Of a stretch of DNA of 64,000 bases, positions 11,932-47,375 are shown one piece after another; positions within the stretch are counted from its first letter, which is position 1, and each line of letters opens with the position of its first letter. The notes under the pieces are model-generated. The model saw nothing but the letters and a program-made list of their open reading frames with translations. It was not told the DNA's origin and did not search any database. The translations under genes and the position numbers were made by a program. This DNA is from Polaromonas sp. A23. Its GTDB lineage: Bacteria > Pseudomonadota > Gammaproteobacteria > Burkholderiales > Burkholderiaceae_C. The stretch is from contig NZ_MUNO01000026.1 of the NCBI RefSeq assembly GCF_002001015.1, forward strand, positions 310,001-374,000, written 5' to 3'.

Positions 11932-13794
11932 ATGGCTGAACTGATCGAGTGGTTGGCTGACGGCACGCCCTACAGTCCGCGTTATGGCGACCGCTACCGC
12001 AGTGAGTTGGGCGGGCTGGCGCAGGCGCGTGAGGTCTTTTTGCACGGCTGCGGACTGCCTGCAGCCTGGGCCGATCAGCCGCAGTGGCGAATTCTGGAGA
12101 CTGGCTTTGGGCTGGGTCTGAACTTTCTGGTCACCTGGCATGCGTGGAAGGCAGACCACCAACGCCCTCGAATTCTGCATTTTGTCTCGACAGAGGCTCA
12201 CCCTGCCAGCGCCTCCGATGTGTTGCGCGCGGCGGCTGCCCATCCTGAATTGCTGCCTTTTGCGGAACACCTGGCCAGCCAGCTCTGGGGCTTGCTGCCA
12301 GGTTTTCACCGTCTGGTGTTTGAAGAGGGGCGCGTCTTGCTAACGCTCTGCATCGGGGACACCAAAGCCGTTTTGCGAGAACAGGTGATGGAGGCCGACT
12401 CGGTTTACCTTGACGGATTCAGCCCCTCAAAAAATCCTGACATCTGGGACCTCCACACCCTGAAAGCCGTGGCGCGCTGCTGCCGCCGCGGCACACGCAT
12501 AGCAAGCTGGACGGTAGCGCGCGCCGTGCTGGACAGTCTGGCCCAGTGCGGCTTTGTGGTTCATAAAACCACCGGCCTTCCGCCCAAGCGCGACAACCTG
12601 CAAGGGCAGTTCGATCCGCGCTGGGAACCGTGCAAGCCCAAGCGACTCACGCCTGTGAAACCCACAACTTGCGTGGTCATAGGCGGTGGCCTGGCCGGCG
12701 CAGCCGTAGCCTCCAGCCTGGCCCGGCGCGGCTGCCAGGTCACAGTGCTTGATGCGCATGAGGCACCGGCAGGCGGCGCATCAGGTCTGCCCGCGGGCCT
12801 GCTGGTGCCGCATGTTTCGCCGGACGACAGTTTGCTGTCGCGGCTTTCGCGTTGCGGCGTGCGGACCACACTGCAGCAGGCGGCTGCGCTTTTGCAGGAG
12901 GGGAGCGACTGGAAACCAACCGGCGCGCTGGAGCGGCGGCTGGACGGGAGCGCAGGCCTTCCCGTTGACTGGCCGGAGGCTGGGCGCGAATGGAGCGAAA
13001 CCGCCGCGCCAGAGCGCTTCGGTCAGGTAGGCGTGCTGGAACCCGCAGCCTGCTGGCATCAGCGGGCGGGCTGGGTTAAACCCTCCCGGCTGGTGAATGC
13101 CTTACTCTCTCAAACGGGCATTTCATGGCAGGGGAACGCTCAGGTATTTCAACTACGGCGAGACGCGACTACCCACCTGTGGCAAGCGCAGGACGCGAAG
13201 GGCCACACGCTGGCACAAGCTTCCATCGTGGTGCTGGCTGCGGGCTATGCCAGCGCATTGCTGGCAGGAGTCAGCCTGCCCCTGCAGGCGATTCGCGGAC
13301 AAGTGTCCTGGGGCTTGCAAACCGGTCCCGTAAAGGCCTTTCCAGGGTTTCCGGTCAATGGCCATGGGAGCTTCGTGTCGGACGTGCCGACAGCGCAGGG
13401 CCCAGTGTGGCTGTGCGGCGCCAGTTTTGAGCGGGACCAAAACAACACGGATATCCGCGCTCATGATCAGCAGGCCAATCTGGAAAAACTGCGTTTGCTG
13501 CTGCCCGAAGTGGCGGCTTGTCTTACCCCTTCGTTTGAAGACGGCTCAGTGCAGGACTGGGCCGGTGTGCGCTGCGCCTCTCCCGACAGGTTGCCCTTGG
13601 TGGGCCCGCTTGATGTCGCCTTGCTGCCCGGATTGTGGGTGAACACCGCGATGGGCTCGCGTGGGCTGACTTTTGCGCTGATGTGCGCCGAACTGCTGGC
13701 TGCGCAGCTGCACGGGGAACCCCTGCCTGTGCAAGCGCGTCTGGCAAATGCCCTCTCGCCGGGGCGTTTCACGCGACTTGATCAGCGACCGTGA
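11932..13794 (+). CDS. mnmC: Bifunctional tRNA wobble-uridine modification enzyme MnmC
   Basis: A 620-residue two-domain enzyme converting cmnm5s2U34 to mnm5s2U34 in tRNA. The N-terminal methyltransferase domain (about residues 1-235) shows LETGFGLGLNFLVTW and VYLDGFSPSKNPDIW. The C-terminal FAD-dependent oxidoreductase domain starts at about residue 240 with VVIGGGLAGAAVASSLARRG. The last 47 codons occur again, 91 percent identical by hand alignment, at 20909-21052. The intact gene therefore ends in a segment that may have been replaced when the downstream cassette arrived. Confidence 0.93.
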   Translation: MAELIEWLADGTPYSPRYGDRYRSELGGLAQAREVFLHGCGLPAAWADQPQWRILETGFGLGLNFLVTWHAWKADHQRPRILHFVSTEAHPASASDVLRAAAAHPELLPFAEHLASQLWGLLPGFHRLVFEEGRVLLTLCIGDTKAVLREQVMEADSVYLDGFSPSKNPDIWDLHTLKAVARCCRRGTRIASWTVARAVLDSLAQCGFVVHKTTGLPPKRDNLQGQFDPRWEPCKPKRLTPVKPTTCVVIGGGLAGAAVASSLARRGCQVTVLDAHEAPAGGASGLPAGLLVPHVSPDDSLLSRLSRCGVRTTLQQAAALLQEGSDWKPTGALERRLDGSAGLPVDWPEAGREWSETAAPERFGQVGVLEPAACWHQRAGWVKPSRLVNALLSQTGISWQGNAQVFQLRRDATTHLWQAQDAKGHTLAQASIVVLAAGYASALLAGVSLPLQAIRGQVSWGLQTGPVKAFPGFPVNGHGSFVSDVPTAQGPVWLCGASFERDQNNTDIRAHDQQANLEKLRLLLPEVAACLTPSFEDGSVQDWAGVRCASPDRLPLVGPLDVALLPGLWVNTAMGSRGLTFALMCAELLAAQLHGEPLPVQARLANALSPGRFTRLDQRP

Positions 13795-13851
13795 GTGTTT
13801 TCGCGGTTTTGCCCTTTAACCACGGGAATAGTACGCTATATATTTTGTAGC
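13651..13851 (+). repeat. Direct repeat, left copy (mnmC 3' end plus family A repeat)
   Basis: The last 144 bases of mnmC plus the following family A element (A5). A homologous copy lies at 20909-21108 in the same orientation. Thirteen differences were counted by eye over the 144 coding bases. The copies bracket the exosortase cassette. Confidence 0.85.
13805..13851 (-). repeat. Dispersed repeat family A, copy A5
   Basis: On the minus strand the core is GCTACAAAATATATAGC, with a tail containing AAAGGGC. It follows the mnmC stop and is matched by A6 after the second mnmC fragment. Confidence 0.8.
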
Positions 13852-14019
13852 AATTGGGTGAGTTCAAGAAGTTGGGCATTACCGGACTTTTTTGTGGATC
13901 TAGGCCCCGACGCTTCGGGGAGGGTAGTGTTCCACTTGTGCGCCCGCAGCAGAGTTGGGGTAAGCGCGGCCGTTCGCGTCCCCTGCCCTTCGGGCTCCTC
14001 CTTTACCTCACTTTGGCAC

Positions 14020-16809
14020 TCACCCCAGCCCTGCTGCTCGATACCTCGGGGTGGCCCGGTGTTGGCAGCCAGCCGCGCGCCGCGCGCGGATCATCCATGT
14101 GGCCACGGCCAGGCTCACCAGTAGCAGTAACCATTCCTCAGGTTCTGGCGTGATGTTGGCAGTCAACGGGTTGCTGGGTTTTTGCAGTGTCTCGGTGCCC
14201 GACTCCTGAGCCCGTTCAAACCGGTCATCACTTGCCTCTGCCTTGGCCAAGGCCTCTTGCTGTTGGGTGTTAACCAGCACCAGCATGGACGAATAGGGCG
14301 TGACCACGCCGTGGTTTTGCGCAATGGCATGCAGAGCAGCAAGTTGCGGCACTGCCAGTGGCGCCGTTTGTCGGGTGGACTGGGCAATCCACAGGCGGGC
14401 AGCCAGGGGTGCAAAAGCCTCGTCGGTCGCGGTTCTGGCGTTGCTGTCTTCCACCGAGAAGGCGTAACCGTCTCGCTGCATCAAAAAGCCAGGCGCCGCG
14501 TTCTGCGCGCGTGCATAGTGCTCCCACGCTTCCTGCAGACTGGCAAATGCGGAGCCACCGCTGGTTTGCATGGATTCCAGCGTGGCGTCGTCGTAGGCTG
14601 GGGCCATCGCGCCGCCCAGGTGAACCATGCTCAGCATGCCGTTTTTGAACCGGGTACGGGCCTTGTCTTTGCTCAGATCGAAAGCGCCGTTGTCGGTCAG
14701 GACAATGGTCAGGTCTTGCGCCTCGGGGATGTGGGTGGCGGCCTGTTGCAGCAATTGGTCAACATGGCCGCCCCCCATAAACCCCGTGAGCAGGGCCGGG
14801 GTCACGTCGGCTAAGGGGACCCGGCGTGTCGTCTCTTGCATCACCGGCGTGGTGGTGAACAGCACCGACACCGTGTTGCCAGCCGATTGCTGTTTGAACT
14901 GGTCCAGGGCTTTTAGCAGTTCCGGGCGGTGTGCGGCCATGGACCAGCTGCGGTCTAACACCAGCGTTAGCTTCTTGCCGGCTACCGTGGGCAGGCTGGC
15001 CGTTGCCGGTTGGGCAATGATGGTGGGACCGAGCGGGCCCACGCGGTAGGCGTGGCGACTCGGAGCGACGTTCAGCGCCACGGGCAGTTCCTTGGGCCAC
15101 CAGTTTGAGAGGTCGCCTGGGCAAGCGCTGCCATTGCAGAGCCGTTGCGTATGCCGGTCCCAGGCGACGTTGCGCTTTTCGGCCAGCACTGGCAGCGGCC
15201 AGGCACCATGGCTCGCCAGCGTGGTGTATTGCAAGCGCAGATACAGCTTGGGTCCGGCGGTCTCACCGCGCGCATGGTGCGCTCGCGGGCGTGGCGGTAC
15301 CGGAAAGGCGCGCAGGCGGTACTGGCGCGGACCGACTTGCTCAAGCAACGCGGGGTCCACACGGCGCTGGACCTCGGCCTTGTAGACGCGCTGCGCCGCG
15401 CCCCGGCTGGCGATGGTGAAGGCCTGCATATGGTCGCGGTCTTCGCCCAGCCACAGGCCGGTGATGGCCGCACTCTCCGGCAGGGAGAACAGATAGAAGA
15501 TTTCTTGCTGCTCCGTGGTGAGATTGACATAGGTCTCATCCAGCGTGATGCGTGCCAGGTCTCCACTCGCGTCGACACGCGCGCTTTGCTCGGCCACGCG
15601 TACCTTGCGCTGGTCGATGTTGATCAGGCCGGATTCGCGTTCGTCCTGGTTGTACGTGGCCGACAGGGCTTGTGCAATGGCGCTGCGTTCGCCGCGTTGG
15701 ATGGGGGTGTCAAAGTACTGTTCGTAAAGCTCTGCAGCGCGCTTGGCGTCCACCGCCATGTTGCTGCCCTCGTACAGCATGGGCTTGGCCAGCGCGTTGA
15801 ACGCGGCGTTGGGTAGCGCGGCCACATCGGACGGAAGGCCAAGCAATTGGCGGTACCAGTTGCCCACGGCGGTTGATTCGCCGGTGGACGAGGCATAGCG
15901 GTAAGCGCCCAGGTAGGCGTTCAGCAAGCCGGCGCGCAGCATGGGTGCCTTGTCCTGAAATTGTGCGGCTGTCAGCGTGGGAGAACTCAGCAGCGCGAAG
16001 GCCTCCTGTTGCGGTTGGTGGTTGATTTGCACGAAGAGCAGGCCTTGCAGTACCAACATGGTCGCGACGGCCGCCATGCGTTGCGGCAGCGAGAGTGCAC
16101 CCGATCGCCAGGCCTTCACCAGTGCGCGCAGGCACAAAACGGCCATGCACAGTGGCATAGCCAGCAGGCTGCCCGCCGTGAGCACGAACAGCAAGCCGAA
16201 TATGGGAATCAGGAACAGCAGAAAGAAACCTTGCGTCAAGGCCTGCAACAGGTGCAACCAATTGATCGGGTTGAACAACTCAAAGATGCCACGCAGAGCA
16301 GCGGGCGACCAGGCGAGCAAGACCAAAGCTCCCGCATACAGGGCTGCCAGCGCCAGACCCGTGCTGGCCATCAGGCGCACGGTATGCCATACCCGCGTTG
16401 CAGGCAGTGGGCGGACCCAGCTGTGGTACCCGTGTACGCACAGGCCCAGTATCGCAACCAGCAGCCATTGCGACACGGCAGGGCTGAGTTCGCGCATGAT
16501 GATCAACCGGTACAGGCAAAGGCTATAGAACGGCCCTTCGACGGCAAAGAACAGAAACGCCAGGGCCTCGGGTCGCCCCCGCAACCGGGTACTGGCCAGC
16601 AATACGCACAGCCAAGGCACGACCATCCACGACAACAGAATGAAGACGTAGTCAAACGGTACGTCGCCCTGCCACCATTCCGTAAGTAACAGCGGAACGG
16701 CGGGGACCATGGGCAAGGTCGAGCAGATGAACAGTAGGTTCCAGCACCAGAACAAGCCGACGGCGCACTTCAGAATAAAGGGCCCAATAGTTTTTAGGAT
16801 GCGCATCAT
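14020..16809 (-). CDS. VIT/VWA-like membrane protein with PEP-CTERM-like sorting signal
   Basis: A 929-residue protein. Residues 1-260 contain about seven hydrophobic segments. A VIT-like domain spans roughly 395-510 (LDETYVNLTTEQQEIFYLFSLP ... YKAEVQRRVDPALLEQ). A VWA-like region near 610-720 contains LVLDRSWSM (MIDAS-type DxSxS). The C terminus has TPEPEEW at about residue 887, one hydrophobic helix and RARR, the tripartite layout of an exosortase substrate, then 18 further residues. The ATG overlaps the exosortase stop by four bases, so it is probably the dedicated substrate. XrtK/MSEP-CTERM and XrtN/VIT are known analogous enzyme-target pairs; which subfamily this belongs to is not settled here. 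Function after sorting is unknown. Confidence 0.8.
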   Translation of the reverse strand: MMRILKTIGPFILKCAVGLFWCWNLLFICSTLPMVPAVPLLLTEWWQGDVPFDYVFILLSWMVVPWLCVLLASTRLRGRPEALAFLFFAVEGPFYSLCLYRLIIMRELSPAVSQWLLVAILGLCVHGYHSWVRPLPATRVWHTVRLMASTGLALAALYAGALVLLAWSPAALRGIFELFNPINWLHLLQALTQGFFLLFLIPIFGLLFVLTAGSLLAMPLCMAVLCLRALVKAWRSGALSLPQRMAAVATMLVLQGLLFVQINHQPQQEAFALLSSPTLTAAQFQDKAPMLRAGLLNAYLGAYRYASSTGESTAVGNWYRQLLGLPSDVAALPNAAFNALAKPMLYEGSNMAVDAKRAAELYEQYFDTPIQRGERSAIAQALSATYNQDERESGLINIDQRKVRVAEQSARVDASGDLARITLDETYVNLTTEQQEIFYLFSLPESAAITGLWLGEDRDHMQAFTIASRGAAQRVYKAEVQRRVDPALLEQVGPRQYRLRAFPVPPRPRAHHARGETAGPKLYLRLQYTTLASHGAWPLPVLAEKRNVAWDRHTQRLCNGSACPGDLSNWWPKELPVALNVAPSRHAYRVGPLGPTIIAQPATASLPTVAGKKLTLVLDRSWSMAAHRPELLKALDQFKQQSAGNTVSVLFTTTPVMQETTRRVPLADVTPALLTGFMGGGHVDQLLQQAATHIPEAQDLTIVLTDNGAFDLSKDKARTRFKNGMLSMVHLGGAMAPAYDDATLESMQTSGGSAFASLQEAWEHYARAQNAAPGFLMQRDGYAFSVEDSNARTATDEAFAPLAARLWIAQSTRQTAPLAVPQLAALHAIAQNHGVVTPYSSMLVLVNTQQQEALAKAEASDDRFERAQESGTETLQKPSNPLTANITPEPEEWLLLLVSLAVATWMIRARRAAGCQHRATPRYRAAGLG

Positions 16810-18287
16810 GGGAGCTCTCTACTTGTGTGGGAGGAGGAGGCCACCACCGCATGCACGGCGCGGTGGAGGTCTTGTACAACGGCGTCGGACGCGGGACCAT
16901 CGACCACCAGCGTGACCAGAGACCAGTGTTGTTGGGGGTGAAGCAATTGCGACCACAGCCGTGCGGCCAGATCGGGCGCAACCTGCGCGTCCGATTGGAA
17001 CCAGGTGACCGCGGTTTGCGCGCCTGCTTGCAGCGTGACCACGCGGTAGTCGCCGTGGCGTGTGCTTATTCGCGTCTGTTGTTCAATGTGTACGCCCTGT
17101 GCCAGCAGACACAGCTCGGGTGCGTGGTGCGCGCGCCAGTTGTTGCTTTGCACGACCAACAGGCTTCCACGTGTGCCGCGCAGATTAAAACGCTGCTTTT
17201 CGGCAATGGTCGCGCCGTAACCCAACACCAGGTTTTTCTCCTGGCTGGACAGTGCAACGGACTCCGCCTGCAACTGCGCGGGCCAGTTAAGTGCCTGCAG
17301 GTTTGCGGGAGCCTGCACTTGGCGCGTGGGTGTGGGCAACAGCGCAATACTGGCGATCAGTCCCGCCAGCAGCGTGTAGGTTTGCCACCGTAGTTGGCGT
17401 ACCTGACTCGCCGACAGCGGAGCCATGACCGGGCCGCGGCACAGCCAAAAGTTGACCGCACCCACCAGCGCCAGCGCCAGCAACCCCAAAGACGTATGAG
17501 CCATGTCGACCAGCAAGGGCGGGGCCTGGTGATGCATGGCCACGACCAGGGCGGTCACCCGCAATGCATTGAAACCCACGGCAATGGCGGCGCTGAAAGC
17601 TCCCGCCAGCCACCACCGCTGCGCCATGGCTTGAGGCCAGGCCAAACGTGCACACAGCCACAGCGCCATGGCATACCACAGCGTACGCACACCACTGCAG
17701 GCGCTGGCCACATCGGCCACGCCGTTCTCGGTGACGATGATGGATTCCACGGTGACATTGCCCACGCCCAGCGCGTGCAGCAATGGCGCCACCGCGTGCG
17801 CCGTCCACAAGCGCAGTGGCAGACCCAGGTGTGCGTCGATGTGTGCTTGTATGGGCAGGCACAACAGCGTCACCAGCAACAGCACCAGGCGCTGGCGCCA
17901 GGTAGCCGCATCCATATAGGTGGCGCTGATCGCATAGAGCAACAGCAACGCGGCCGTGGCTTGGATGAAATGCACATCGGTGCTGATGCGGGCGATGGCT
18001 GCGAACGTGGCGCCGACCAACACAATCGGCAATGCACGGGGGTGGGCTTGTGATGATGGCGCTTTGCGCACGAAATCGAAAAAAACCAGCAAGATCAGAC
18101 CCATGAGGACAACCCGTTGCACGGCATGTGTGGGTTGTTCCAGCGCAAAGAACATCCAACGCAAGGGCTCGAAACTGGCGATCAGCCACGCCGCCAACAT
18201 TGCGTAACGCCGCCAACGCAAGTCCCTGGTGATCGCACGTGGACCGTTGCTTAGCGCGGGCAGGATTGAGTACGTTGCCGCGCTCAT
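16806..18287 (-). CDS. Exosortase fused to EpsI-like domain
   Basis: A 493-residue inner-membrane protein. Residues 25-310 hold about eight membrane segments with the exosortase catalytic triad: Cys197 (ASACSGVRT), Arg243 (FNALRVTAL) and His264 (DMAHTSLGLL). Exosortases are transpeptidase-like enzymes that cleave PEP-CTERM tails at the outer face of the inner membrane. The C-terminal 180 residues resemble EpsI/DUF3485 (WRAHHAPELCLLAQGVHIE), making this a fused form. The frame opens at 18371, but MSAATYS at 18287 has AAGG upstream and the first 28 residues are dropped. It overlaps the substrate gene by ATGA and follows the lipid kinase gene by 43 bases. Confidence 0.85.
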   Translation of the reverse strand: MSAATYSILPALSNGPRAITRDLRWRRYAMLAAWLIASFEPLRWMFFALEQPTHAVQRVVLMGLILLVFFDFVRKAPSSQAHPRALPIVLVGATFAAIARISTDVHFIQATAALLLLYAISATYMDAATWRQRLVLLLVTLLCLPIQAHIDAHLGLPLRLWTAHAVAPLLHALGVGNVTVESIIVTENGVADVASACSGVRTLWYAMALWLCARLAWPQAMAQRWWLAGAFSAAIAVGFNALRVTALVVAMHHQAPPLLVDMAHTSLGLLALALVGAVNFWLCRGPVMAPLSASQVRQLRWQTYTLLAGLIASIALLPTPTRQVQAPANLQALNWPAQLQAESVALSSQEKNLVLGYGATIAEKQRFNLRGTRGSLLVVQSNNWRAHHAPELCLLAQGVHIEQQTRISTRHGDYRVVTLQAGAQTAVTWFQSDAQVAPDLAARLWSQLLHPQQHWSLVTLVVDGPASDAVVQDLHRAVHAVVASSSHTSRELP

Positions 18288-18330
18288 GTGGCGCCTTGAC
18301 TGGCAGATGGGTGGTGTTCGCTGACCAAAT

Positions 18331-18729
18331 TTACAGCCCCTTTCCCAAATAGGGCCAGAAGGTGATGACACCGGTGGCTACTGCTGCGCAAGCCGCTATC
18401 AACACACTGCCGGCCGCAAGATCTTTTGCACATTTGACTGCCAATGAGTACTGTGGGGACACCACATCGCAGAGCGACTCAACGGCTGTGTTCATGGCCT
18501 CTGCCATCCACACCATAGTCATCGCGCCAATCAGCCAGCGCCAATCACTGGCGTTCATTCGACACCACACGGCCAACCCGGTCACGAGCACCGTGGCGAT
18601 CAGATGCAGCCAAGCGTTGTGCTGTGTTTTAAGCATCAAAGCCAAGCCTTCGAAGGCATAGCCAAAGCTCTTGAAGCGTGCGGTCAGAGTGAATCGCTGC
18701 GACGCGCCGGCGTGAGGGACTTCTTTCAT
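18331..18729 (-). CDS. Diacylglycerol/undecaprenol kinase family protein (cassette copy)
   Basis: A 132-residue small membrane kinase of the DagK_prokar family. The N-terminal amphipathic FKSFGYAFEGL is followed by QHNAWLHLIAT. Catalytic-type residues lie in EAMNTAVESLCDVVSPQYSLAVKCAKDLAAGSVLI, and there are three hydrophobic segments. The family phosphorylates diacylglycerol or undecaprenol. A second, more divergent paralogue is at 46884-47375. Its position between the Ldi-like and exosortase genes suggests a lipid-linked role in the same system. The substrate is not predictable. Confidence 0.85.
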   Translation of the reverse strand: MKEVPHAGASQRFTLTARFKSFGYAFEGLALMLKTQHNAWLHLIATVLVTGLAVWCRMNASDWRWLIGAMTMVWMAEAMNTAVESLCDVVSPQYSLAVKCAKDLAAGSVLIAACAAVATGVITFWPYLGKGL

Positions 18730-18856
18730 GTTTCATCCTTCTTATTCACCAGCCGCCACGCCTGGGCAGCACATGTTCGTCGAACCGTGCACACCCGCAT
18801 AACCTGCAAGCCATACAAGCAGCCCCATACCGCGGCCATCAAGATGCAACAAGCCA

Positions 18857-20782
18857 TCACAGCGCGCCGGCCGGTTCTAGCGTCAAACAGGTGCGTCCAG
18901 CCAGCGGAACCTGCAAGCGCACCTGACCCATGTCGTCCGCCAGCACCTGCGTCAGGCTTGCACCTGTCACCCGATAGGCTGCTAACGGACGCAAGCCCGA
19001 CACACCCAGGCTCTGAACGCCATCGCCGGCTCCGCCGTAAAGCACCGCTTGCAAAGATCCGCTTGCATCATCGGAGTGCGCTGCTGCAACCAGCACGTCG
19101 GGATAGGACAGGTTTTCCAACCGAGGACCTTTTGATGGAAGTGGGTTGCTGATCAAGTCTCGAAAACTGTTGCGCCCTCCGGAGAGCGCCATCAACTCGA
19201 CACCATGCGCCCATACCGAGGCCTTACTCCTGTGGGCAACCCCATGCTCGAGAATGGTCGGACACGAGTGCTCCAAGGCATCCATGCAGTTTTGGTACAC
19301 ACACGCATCACCCAACTCTGCCGCCGCCAAGGCCGCCGCTGCGTAGGCACTGCCTCTTGAGAAACCATAGTTTCCTGTGTCGATGGGCCAAAACGCATTG
19401 CGTCGAAGTCGCCCATGACTATCGAACAGCTGACGTCTCAGCAACAGCCATTGGCGACGTGCCAAATCAGGTGCCAGCGCGTTCAAAAAGTAGCAGGGCA
19501 TCGCCAGCGGCATGGCGCCACCCATGGCGGGCAAGGCCAATCCCGTATACGTGGAGCGGCATGGCACGTACCGGCCCTTACCATCCAGAAACTCCGCGTC
19601 CAGATGCCGGCGAAACTGGGGTGCGTGACGGGCCCATTTCGCCTGGCCGTATTGCGCATCGTGGGCACACAGTGCCGTGGCGCCCATGGTGTTGCACAAG
19701 GGATAGACCCAATTGGGTTCGCAGGCCATCAAATAAAAAGGTGCACGTTCGTATTCTTTCTCCAAGTTTGCCAGCAAGGACTCAAAGCTGTGTTCGTAGC
19801 GTCGCCCGTTCGGGTGCGCCAAGGTAAAGGCAGCTGTTTTCGAAAATTCCTGACTTTCTGTGCTCGCCTGGAACAGGGCCATCTGCAGCGCCGCGAAGCC
19901 CGTGAACATGATGTTTTCACGGGCGGTCGGGTCGGGATTCCAACGCAGGTTTCCCCACAGATTTTCCAGCGACCAGTAAGCCCATGTGCGGTGCTGCGTC
20001 TGCTTGTGAAGTAGCTTGCTTTGCGCGTCGCTCATGTATCCGCCCAACGCGGGTGTGAAGCGTGCCTGCGTCACGGCAATGCCATAAGCCAGAAAGTTGA
20101 CTTGATACCGCAGCGCCGCCGTCTGAAATTGATCGCGTTGCTCGAACCCGGAAAATTCATCGACAGGCTGCAGCGCGCGGTCGAGTGCGAATCTCACCCG
20201 TTGCAGATGCTCCAAGGACATCTCTGGTTTTTGGCTTGGTGAGTGGGCTGTGAAGATCGTGTCCAAGCGAGCCGTTTGCCGGACCAAATACTCGTTATCG
20301 ATGCGCCTTTGTCGGCCTGCAAACACGAACCAGGCCAGCATTGACAGGCAGAGAGCCGCAGCAAGCAGCGCGAGCATGCGGTACACGTTATAGACCACTC
20401 CTGGCTGAATGGCGCCATGGCCCATGCTTGCGGCCCACAGGGCCGAGCCGAGCCACACCAACGGGGGCAGCAACACATTGCCCGTGCCAAACCAGATCAA
20501 CAGCGCCAATGCCAAGGCACTCACCGAACACAGCCAAGCAGCGATATGAGCTATGCCGCTGCCTGTGCAGATATCAGCATGCGCCAGAAATCCGCCACCC
20601 GGCACCATCAAACCCAGACCGAAAATCTGCAGAGCGTCCTGATGCGCGACAAGCAGCAAAGCCGAGCCGACCGTCACCAGCAGCAGATACAGCTTTAGAA
20701 GTCGGAAGATCTTTCCATTCGTTACCGGACCGAAAAGCCGTGTGTAGGGTGGAAGTGGAGCGACGCTATTGATTGAATTCAC
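18857..20782 (-). CDS. Membrane-anchored linalool dehydratase/isomerase-like protein
   Basis: A 641-residue protein. Residues 25-155 contain four to five hydrophobic helices (LYLLLVTVGSALLL, ALALALLIWFG, MLALLAAALCLSMLAWFVF). Residues about 260-530 match the alpha/alpha-barrel Ldi domain: YWSLENLWG, NIMFTG (residue 290), and ACEPNWVYPLCN with Cys354 and Cys363 nine residues apart, like the catalytic Cys171/Cys180 pair of Castellaniella Ldi. A short beta-rich tail follows. The start is GTG (20782) with a purine-rich GGGGAAAG upstream. It is the first gene of the exosortase operon. The reaction and substrate are unknown; monoterpene chemistry is not implied. Confidence 0.75.
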   Translation of the reverse strand: MNSINSVAPLPPYTRLFGPVTNGKIFRLLKLYLLLVTVGSALLLVAHQDALQIFGLGLMVPGGGFLAHADICTGSGIAHIAAWLCSVSALALALLIWFGTGNVLLPPLVWLGSALWAASMGHGAIQPGVVYNVYRMLALLAAALCLSMLAWFVFAGRQRRIDNEYLVRQTARLDTIFTAHSPSQKPEMSLEHLQRVRFALDRALQPVDEFSGFEQRDQFQTAALRYQVNFLAYGIAVTQARFTPALGGYMSDAQSKLLHKQTQHRTWAYWSLENLWGNLRWNPDPTARENIMFTGFAALQMALFQASTESQEFSKTAAFTLAHPNGRRYEHSFESLLANLEKEYERAPFYLMACEPNWVYPLCNTMGATALCAHDAQYGQAKWARHAPQFRRHLDAEFLDGKGRYVPCRSTYTGLALPAMGGAMPLAMPCYFLNALAPDLARRQWLLLRRQLFDSHGRLRRNAFWPIDTGNYGFSRGSAYAAAALAAAELGDACVYQNCMDALEHSCPTILEHGVAHRSKASVWAHGVELMALSGGRNSFRDLISNPLPSKGPRLENLSYPDVLVAAAHSDDASGSLQAVLYGGAGDGVQSLGVSGLRPLAAYRVTGASLTQVLADDMGQVRLQVPLAGRTCLTLEPAGAL

Positions 20783-20908
20783 AGACCGATCTTTCCCCGA
20801 AAGGAAAACACCTAACTGATGCGCTCGACTTTCGGTGGGTGCAGTCTGATGTGCGTCTGTGAGGTCTTGATGAACTACGTGAAGTTGAGGTGAAGTCGCC
20901 TGCTAGCC

Positions 20909-21052
20909 ATGGGTTCGCGCAGGCTGACTTTTGCGCTGATGTGCGCCGAACTGCTGGCCGCGCAGCTGCACGGAGAACCCCTGCCCATGGAGGCGCGTCT
21001 GGCAAATGCCCTCTCGCCGGGGCGTTTCAGGCGACTTGACCAGCGATTGTGA
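20909..21052 (+). pseudogene. mnmC: mnmC 3'-end fragment (right direct-repeat copy)
   Basis: This encodes a 47-residue remnant homologous to the MnmC C terminus, ending in a stop at the same point. Compared with the intact gene there are 13 base and 5 residue changes (Gly to Arg, Val to Met, Gln to Glu, Thr to Arg, Pro to Leu). The Gly lost lies in the normally conserved MGSRGLTFA segment. No upstream mnmC sequence precedes it. It is probably the displaced native end, or a donor end, left by cassette insertion. Confidence 0.85.
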
Positions 21053-46883: not shown

Positions 46884-47375
46884 ATGAAAACGGCACATCA
46901 AATTGCCACAGAGGTGCGGGACAATGCAGAAATGCCTCAGCCCTTGCCAGTCCCCATGATGCCGCCCTCCTTGAGCGCCCCCTCGCCCGTCGAGCCTCCC
47001 GTCAATCCGCAGAAAGACCGAAAAGGACTGAACCGCGTCGTCCACGCGCTCGGCTACTCCCTGGCCGGCCTGAAGGCTGGTTGGCACGAAACAGCCTTCC
47101 GGCAGGAGGCCATCGCGTCCATGGTGTTGATCCCCACCGCGTTCTGGCTGAGCCGCAGCTGGGTAGAAGCCGCATTGCTGGCAGGCTCGGTAATTCTTGT
47201 GATGATTGTTGAACTTCTCAATACCGGCATAGAAACCGCTATCGACCGTATCGGGCCGGAATGGCACGACCTGTCCAAACGCGCCAAGGACATGGGTAGC
47301 GCGGCCGTGTTGCTGAGCCTGCTGCTCTGCGGCGGTACTTGGGCCATGGCGCTTTTTCAACGCTTTTTCGCATGA
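46884..47375 (+). CDS. dgkA: Diacylglycerol kinase family protein (chromosomal copy)
   Basis: A 163-residue DagK_prokar protein with a 50-residue Pro-rich N-terminal extension before the kinase core (GLNRVVHALGYSLAGLKAGWHETAFRQEAIA). The catalytic segment is VELLNTGIETAIDRIGPEWHDLSKRAKDMGSAAV, closely E. coli DgkA-like, with three hydrophobic helices. An internal ATG at 46932 would shorten the extension. Its stop overlaps the next gene (ATGA). A second copy sits in the exosortase cassette. Confidence 0.9.
   Translation: MKTAHQIATEVRDNAEMPQPLPVPMMPPSLSAPSPVEPPVNPQKDRKGLNRVVHALGYSLAGLKAGWHETAFRQEAIASMVLIPTAFWLSRSWVEAALLAGSVILVMIVELLNTGIETAIDRIGPEWHDLSKRAKDMGSAAVLLSLLLCGGTWAMALFQRFFA

Follow-up and report, generated by a model that had tools for sequence, protein, structure and literature searches.

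What does a homologue of linalool dehydratase/isomerase (Ldi) act on when it is anchored in the membrane and encoded in one operon with an exosortase? This question was raised by a gene in the window, the 64,000-nucleotide stretch of Polaromonas sp. A23 DNA that was analysed. A sequence-only reading had placed there, at positions 18857-20782, an Ldi-like protein of about 640 residues, and had suggested from the exosortase context that it may be a hydratase/isomerase of a polyprenyl or other membrane lipid. Position and size were both borne out. The coding strand is the minus strand, on which a single open reading frame with a GTG start runs from 20782 to 18857 and encodes 641 aa, while the plus-strand translation is riddled with stops. 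The features of the locus are collected in Table 1.

Table 1. Features of the Polaromonas sp. A23 window discussed in the text
Feature	Position	Strand	Basis
mnmC 3' end, left direct-repeat copy	13648..13794	+	flank of segment
VIT-domain integral PEP-CTERM protein (TIGR02921), presumed XrtO target	14020..16809	-	633 bits vs cut-off 200; ATGA-coupled to xrtO
Exosortase O (XrtO, TIGR04489)	16806..18287	-	260.7 bits vs cut-off 250
DgkA-family kinase (PF01219), undecaprenol-kinase-type as judged from the tree, 132 aa	18331..18729	-	PF01219, tree
CC microprotein, 43 aa, MACCILMAAVWGCLYGLQVMRVCTVRRTCAAQAWRLVNKKDET	18726..18857	-	between Ldi and kinase
Membrane-anchored Ldi-family protein, 641 aa	18857..20782	-	ORF, PF18566 1.2e-71, AlphaFold2 model, Ldi Z 36.7, invariant residues
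Duplicated mnmC 3' end, right segment boundary	20906..21052	+	repeat alignment
Canonical dgkA, separate from the undecaprenol-kinase-type paralog	47052-47351	+	same window

The protein consists of a membrane domain (residues about 19-155), an (alpha/alpha)6 Ldi domain (about 180-550) and a C-terminal beta domain (about 554-637). The Pfam Ldi profile (PF18566) matched residues 225-522 with an E-value of 1.2e-71 and a score of 242.3 bits, against a cut-off of 26.1. In a phmmer comparison with the PDB, the Ldi entries were retrieved at about 1e-8 to 3e-7 and no other significant match was obtained. The AlphaFold2 model, for which an alignment of 48 related sequences was used (three rows from plasmid records were left out), displayed a pLDDT of 94.5 and a pTM of 0.93. 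Superposition of such a model on Ldi was the check proposed in the sequence-only reading. With the Castellaniella enzyme (5i3t) it gave a Z of 36.7 and 2.5 Å over 334 residues, which together with the Pfam match confirms the fold. A true Ldi (PF18566) domain thus follows a membrane domain of four helices. An NCBIfam match to ribose-5-phosphate isomerase (E 0.0095) was discarded as noise, being far under the cut-off.

The runner-up folds to the model were GH76, GH105/88 and the N-acylglucosamine and cellobiose epimerases, with Z values of about 19-20 (best 20.4); GH127 was found too. Such folds, together with the C-terminal beta domain, would be in line with a barrel that acts on a lipid-linked sugar, like a glycosidase or an epimerase, rather than on an allylic alcohol. 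The Ldi match lies far above the best of them, however, and the Ldi cysteine pair and its neighbours are invariant, so that this activity is very improbable.

The conservation of the active site was evaluated next to the 87 other proteins of the alignment, using the Ldi residues named in PMC12455561, where the numbering is one lower. The stretch CEPNWVYPLCN occupies residues 354-364 and was paired by phmmer with CEPDNYFVQCN of the solved Ldi. Its two cysteines, C354 and C363, align with C171 and C180 of Castellaniella Ldi (the locus L002 protein in the alignment), exactly as had been supposed from the motif. C354, E355, C363, N364 and M292 are invariant in 87/87 of the proteins, and the equivalent of Ldi M125 is conserved in the 641-aa protein. 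The reading had further pointed to Asp, His and Tyr residues that might complete the same pocket. Two of the three were found: Ldi D39 corresponds to D201 (kept in 83/87) and Ldi Tyr66 to Y226 (kept in 85/87). The histidine was not; the position of Ldi His129 is occupied by Phe, Trp or Tyr in 86/87 proteins, with F296 here and Trp in Lis, the assayed enzyme of Thauera linaloolentis. Ldi Tyr45 is unconserved, and its position corresponds to D208 here in a loop of uncertain alignment.

In the membrane domain the model has helices at residues 19-45, 49-68 (broken), 74-100, 105-119 and 127-170. These probably represent four membrane passes (the last one at 127-155) with 49-68 as a re-entrant segment, in agreement with the four to five transmembrane helices predicted earlier. 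Across 48 sequences, G57, P61, G64, F65, W97, G101, P106, W110 and A114 hardly vary, suggesting that the domain does more than anchor the protein. Basic residues precede the first crossing and follow the last one, which would place the catalytic domain on the cytoplasmic side. A cytosolic catalytic domain has likewise been proposed for Lis (PMC4791888).

The anchored architecture as such is already known. Lis of T. linaloolentis 47Lol (ENO87364, EC 5.4.4.4) has 644 aa with four N-terminal transmembrane helices and an Ldi domain, and is the precedent (PMC4791888). Its gene was located in genome G831, where the mass (71,825 Da), the length and the GRAVY values (-0.115/0.940/-0.406) match the published ones and the published forward primer matches the gene start. 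Lis resembles the Polaromonas protein in size, domain order, the cysteine pair and the aromatic residue in place of His129. In contrast, it belongs to another clade, is about one third identical, has Glu for D201 and lacks the kinase neighbour. Ldi of Castellaniella defragrans (LinD; 5HLR, 5G1U, 5I3T) shares the fold of the catalytic domain and has counterparts of its C171/C180, D39, Y66 and M125 here, but it is a soluble periplasmic protein with a signal peptide, has no membrane domain, is about 20% identical and possesses the His129 and Tyr45 that are unconserved in the 641-aa protein. The Castellaniella genome (G412) contains no gene for the microprotein described below.

Ldi-domain genes were found to be sparse: 1/61 genomes in the genus, 3/399 in the order and 5/397 in the phylum. 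A scan of GTDB genomes provided 80 named loci, and 85 loci were tabulated. The tree contains a 37-row clade (SH-aLRT 100) that holds Lis and excludes the 641-aa protein. The tabulated loci were divided into 35 of this Lis clade and the 50 outside it, referred to as the group of the Polaromonas gene. The closest relatives of the 641-aa protein are from Aquabacterium (67-68% identity) and Massilia (about 60%). Spongiibacter thalassae encodes two Ldi homologues in one locus (L091; 6968-8881 and 11716-13896), the second of which is followed by a CC ORF (see below) at 13920-14120.

The two sets of loci differ in their neighbours. A DgkA-family gene adjoins Ldi in 48/50 loci of the group and in 0/35 Lis-clade loci. 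Alcohol and aldehyde dehydrogenases occur at some Lis-clade loci, as is expected for terpenol degradation, and aldehyde dehydrogenase neighbours recur in that clade only. These differences bear on the possibility that the 641-aa protein is an ordinary Lis, degrading plant monoterpene alcohols, with a kinase gene that merely lies adjacent. The common architecture, the cysteine pair and the aromatic residue would fit such an enzyme, but the position outside the Lis clade, the distribution of the kinase and the confinement of the aldehyde dehydrogenases make it unlikely.

Gram-positive DgkA homologues are undecaprenol kinases (UdpK). In a tree of 26 rows, the operon kinases were separated from E. 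coli DgkA and from the canonical DgkA of the same genomes by a split with 100/100 support. They clustered with the kinases of the Paenibacillus ybeY-dgk-cdd and Parabacteroides dgk-PAP2 loci, which are few as references and of presumed substrate. The IH and AKDxAAG signatures are shared with UdpK as well. Based on this tree, the operon kinase is classified as undecaprenol-kinase-type and not as E. coli DgkA-type. An ordinary diacylglycerol kinase was ruled out because of the tree and of the separate canonical dgkA in the genome; two DgkA-family genes were present in 6/8 genomes checked. Unlike UdpK, the operon kinases are mainly proteobacterial, often occur in genomes that also carry a canonical dgkA at another site, and are linked or fused to the microprotein.

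A paralogous cis-prenyl diphosphate synthase (UppS) gene lies directly upstream in 7/50 loci of the group. These loci fall into three parts of the tree, and in the one from Aureimonas AU20 the UppS and Ldi genes overlap. The operon UppS was a second copy in 5/5 such genomes checked. No operon UppS was found in the Polaromonas sp. A23 genome. In 18 loci, mostly alphaproteobacterial and with or without UppS, an HTH_34 winged-helix regulator and a protein of about 200 aa with no Pfam match precede the module (e.g. L010 8201-9167).

Between the Ldi and kinase genes, a 43-aa ORF was detected that reads MACCILMAAVWGCLYGLQVMRVC...QAWRL... and follows the pattern MxCC–TM–WR. This CC microprotein gene overlaps the Ldi stop (TGATG) and the kinase start (ATGA). 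Similar ORFs were collected by their start, M-x(0-2)-C-C, and a hydrophobic stretch, for which the background was 17 in 1.89 Mb of strand sequence. In the group, 50/50 loci have a CC ORF downstream of Ldi, at a distance of at most 800 bp and usually no more than 40 bp; 30 of these ORFs are stand-alone genes and 20 are long forms, mostly kinase fusions. In the Lis clade, a CC ORF was found nearby in 23/35 loci, mostly upstream. A profile built from the microproteins of one set of loci retrieved the Ldi-adjacent gene in the other, at 16 and 13 loci, with 3 and 0 matches elsewhere; one of the three adjoins a second Ldi gene. Massilia microproteins showed dN values of 0.06-0.20 and dS values of 0.29-0.70, with dN well under dS.

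Genome-wide, significant matches were located only near Ldi in this genome (a single match), G820, T. linaloolentis, Thauera Sel9, G822 and G823. G822 has two, one for each of its Ldi loci (L018 and L019). No microprotein was found in 60 congeners without Ldi, and it gave no match in Pfam or NCBIfam; it is apparently previously unrecorded. When Ldi and microprotein of locus L043 were modelled as a stop-read-through fusion, a modelling device that claims no read-through, the microprotein region reached a pLDDT of only about 34-49, too low to position it on Ldi. Altogether, Ldi, microprotein and kinase form a conserved gene module, which is the main finding of this work.

In T. linaloolentis, the microprotein gene lies on the lis contig, 8.7 kb upstream of lis (L138 5922-6317, plus strand), and its product has an MGCC start, probably internal to the ORF, and a C-terminal extension with an EHGEH motif. 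EHGEH-like motifs, EHG-H and GEH, occur in L012 and L091. Mycobacterium innocens (L086 6015-6974) has the microprotein as a fusion with a Caa3_CtaG domain, and in Rhodococcus opacus (L011 11095-12038) the Ldi gene has a CtaG gene and a CC ORF after it. The CtaG association may hint at a copper or redox link.

The exosortase side of the operon was then considered. XrtO and the TIGR02921 VIT-domain protein, its presumed target, passed their NCBIfam cut-offs and stand next in the operon. The likely ATG start of xrtO is at 18287, 43 bases from the kinase stop, although the longest ORF begins at 18371. The stretch from 13795 to 20905 (about 7.1 kb) comprises exactly five genes, those of Ldi, microprotein, kinase, XrtO and PEP-CTERM target. 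On either side of it lies a copy of the mnmC 3' end; the two copies are 90% identical over 147 bp, or 81% over 217 bp when the downstream stretch is included. No integrase gene was noticed in the segment. Given the repeats at its borders, the segment seems to have been acquired at mnmC; the five genes probably arrived together, and a functional link between them is therefore possible in this organism.

Beyond this locus, the pair does not accompany the family. XrtO adjoins Ldi in 1/85 tabulated loci, that of the Polaromonas window only, and the TIGR02921 protein lies beside none of the other 84. XrtO was above the cut-off in 0/18 other genomes with the Ldi family (one of them Thauera, of the Lis clade) and in 1/349 genomes of the order, this one alone. 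Ldi as a standard component of exosortase operons was rejected on these grounds. A literature search found no paper treating both exosortase and linalool, and nothing relevant on XrtO or 'exosortase O'. It is conceivable that Ldi makes or tailors the lipid which XrtO joins to its PEP-CTERM target, the whole segment being one protein-anchoring system. The five genes are co-oriented and tightly spaced between the repeats, XrtO is as rare in the order as Ldi, and archaeosortase cleavage has been tied to prenylation of the target (PMC11980579). We nevertheless consider this doubtful, in view of the loci and genomes that lack XrtO and of a module that evidently exists elsewhere without it.

The conservation of kinase and microprotein beside Ldi suggests that a long-chain membrane lipid is remodelled rather than plant scents, and the pairing of a prenol kinase with a cis-prenyl synthase is indicative of long-chain prenols. 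The lipid hydratase/isomerase of the sequence-only reading is partly supported by the conserved kinase, the microprotein and the seven UppS genes, while the exosortase operon given as its reason does not hold for the family. Our preferred explanation, to which a probability of roughly 0.55 is assigned, is an isomerase/hydro-lyase of polyprenol-type allylic alcohols that is coupled to a prenol kinase and has the CC microprotein as its obligate partner.

As to substrate, reaction direction, kinase coupling and the role of the microprotein, we infer the following scheme. The inner-membrane domain would draw the substrate from the bilayer, and in the cytoplasmic (alpha/alpha)6 barrel C354 and C363, with D201, Y226 and M292, would convert an allylic terpenoid alcohol by acid-base catalysis, resulting in a hydroxyl shift and/or the loss or addition of water. 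In the branch of the Polaromonas gene a long-chain prenol is the most likely substrate. Lis favours the conversion of geraniol to linalool and the reverse is uphill (PMC4791888), so that a tertiary-to-primary conversion needs a pull. This could be exerted by the undecaprenol-kinase-type neighbour, through phosphorylation of the primary alcohol; in the Lis branch, it would probably come from the alcohol and aldehyde dehydrogenases. The CC microprotein would be a small membrane protein on which the anchored Ldi depends. Such a requirement would be an attractive explanation of why Lis showed no activity when it was produced by itself in E. coli (PMC4791888).

Several observations speak against this explanation. 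The UppS product carries a nerol-like (cis) alpha unit, and nerol is not used by Lis (PMC4791888). Castellaniella Ldi gives lower yields with alcohols longer than about C13, and a C16 alcohol brings a sharp drop (PMC12455561). The UppS gene occurs at the seven loci only and not in this operon, the His129 of Ldi is missing, and the fusion model did not position the microprotein on Ldi. A broader version of the polyprenol scheme is a long shot. It would comprise a dispersed pathway of Ldi, CC microprotein and UdpK, in some cases with UppS, for the synthesis or recycling of an isomerised or dehydrated polyprenol (phosphate) not described so far, with the microprotein as obligate subunit of all anchored Ldi and Lis enzymes and with exosortase O using the lipid here to anchor its single PEP-CTERM target.

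New in this work are the split of the family, mirrored by the kinase, the CC microprotein and the link to XrtO, the latter seen in this genome alone. The anchored Ldi enzymes belong to a family under study for terpene-alcohol biocatalysis, and the microprotein encoded beside most of them offers a testable explanation for the inactive Lis in E. coli. The branch with the kinase suggests a polyprenol pathway that the literature searched does not describe. Finally, the locus with the exosortase could open a test of which lipid exosortases attach to their targets.
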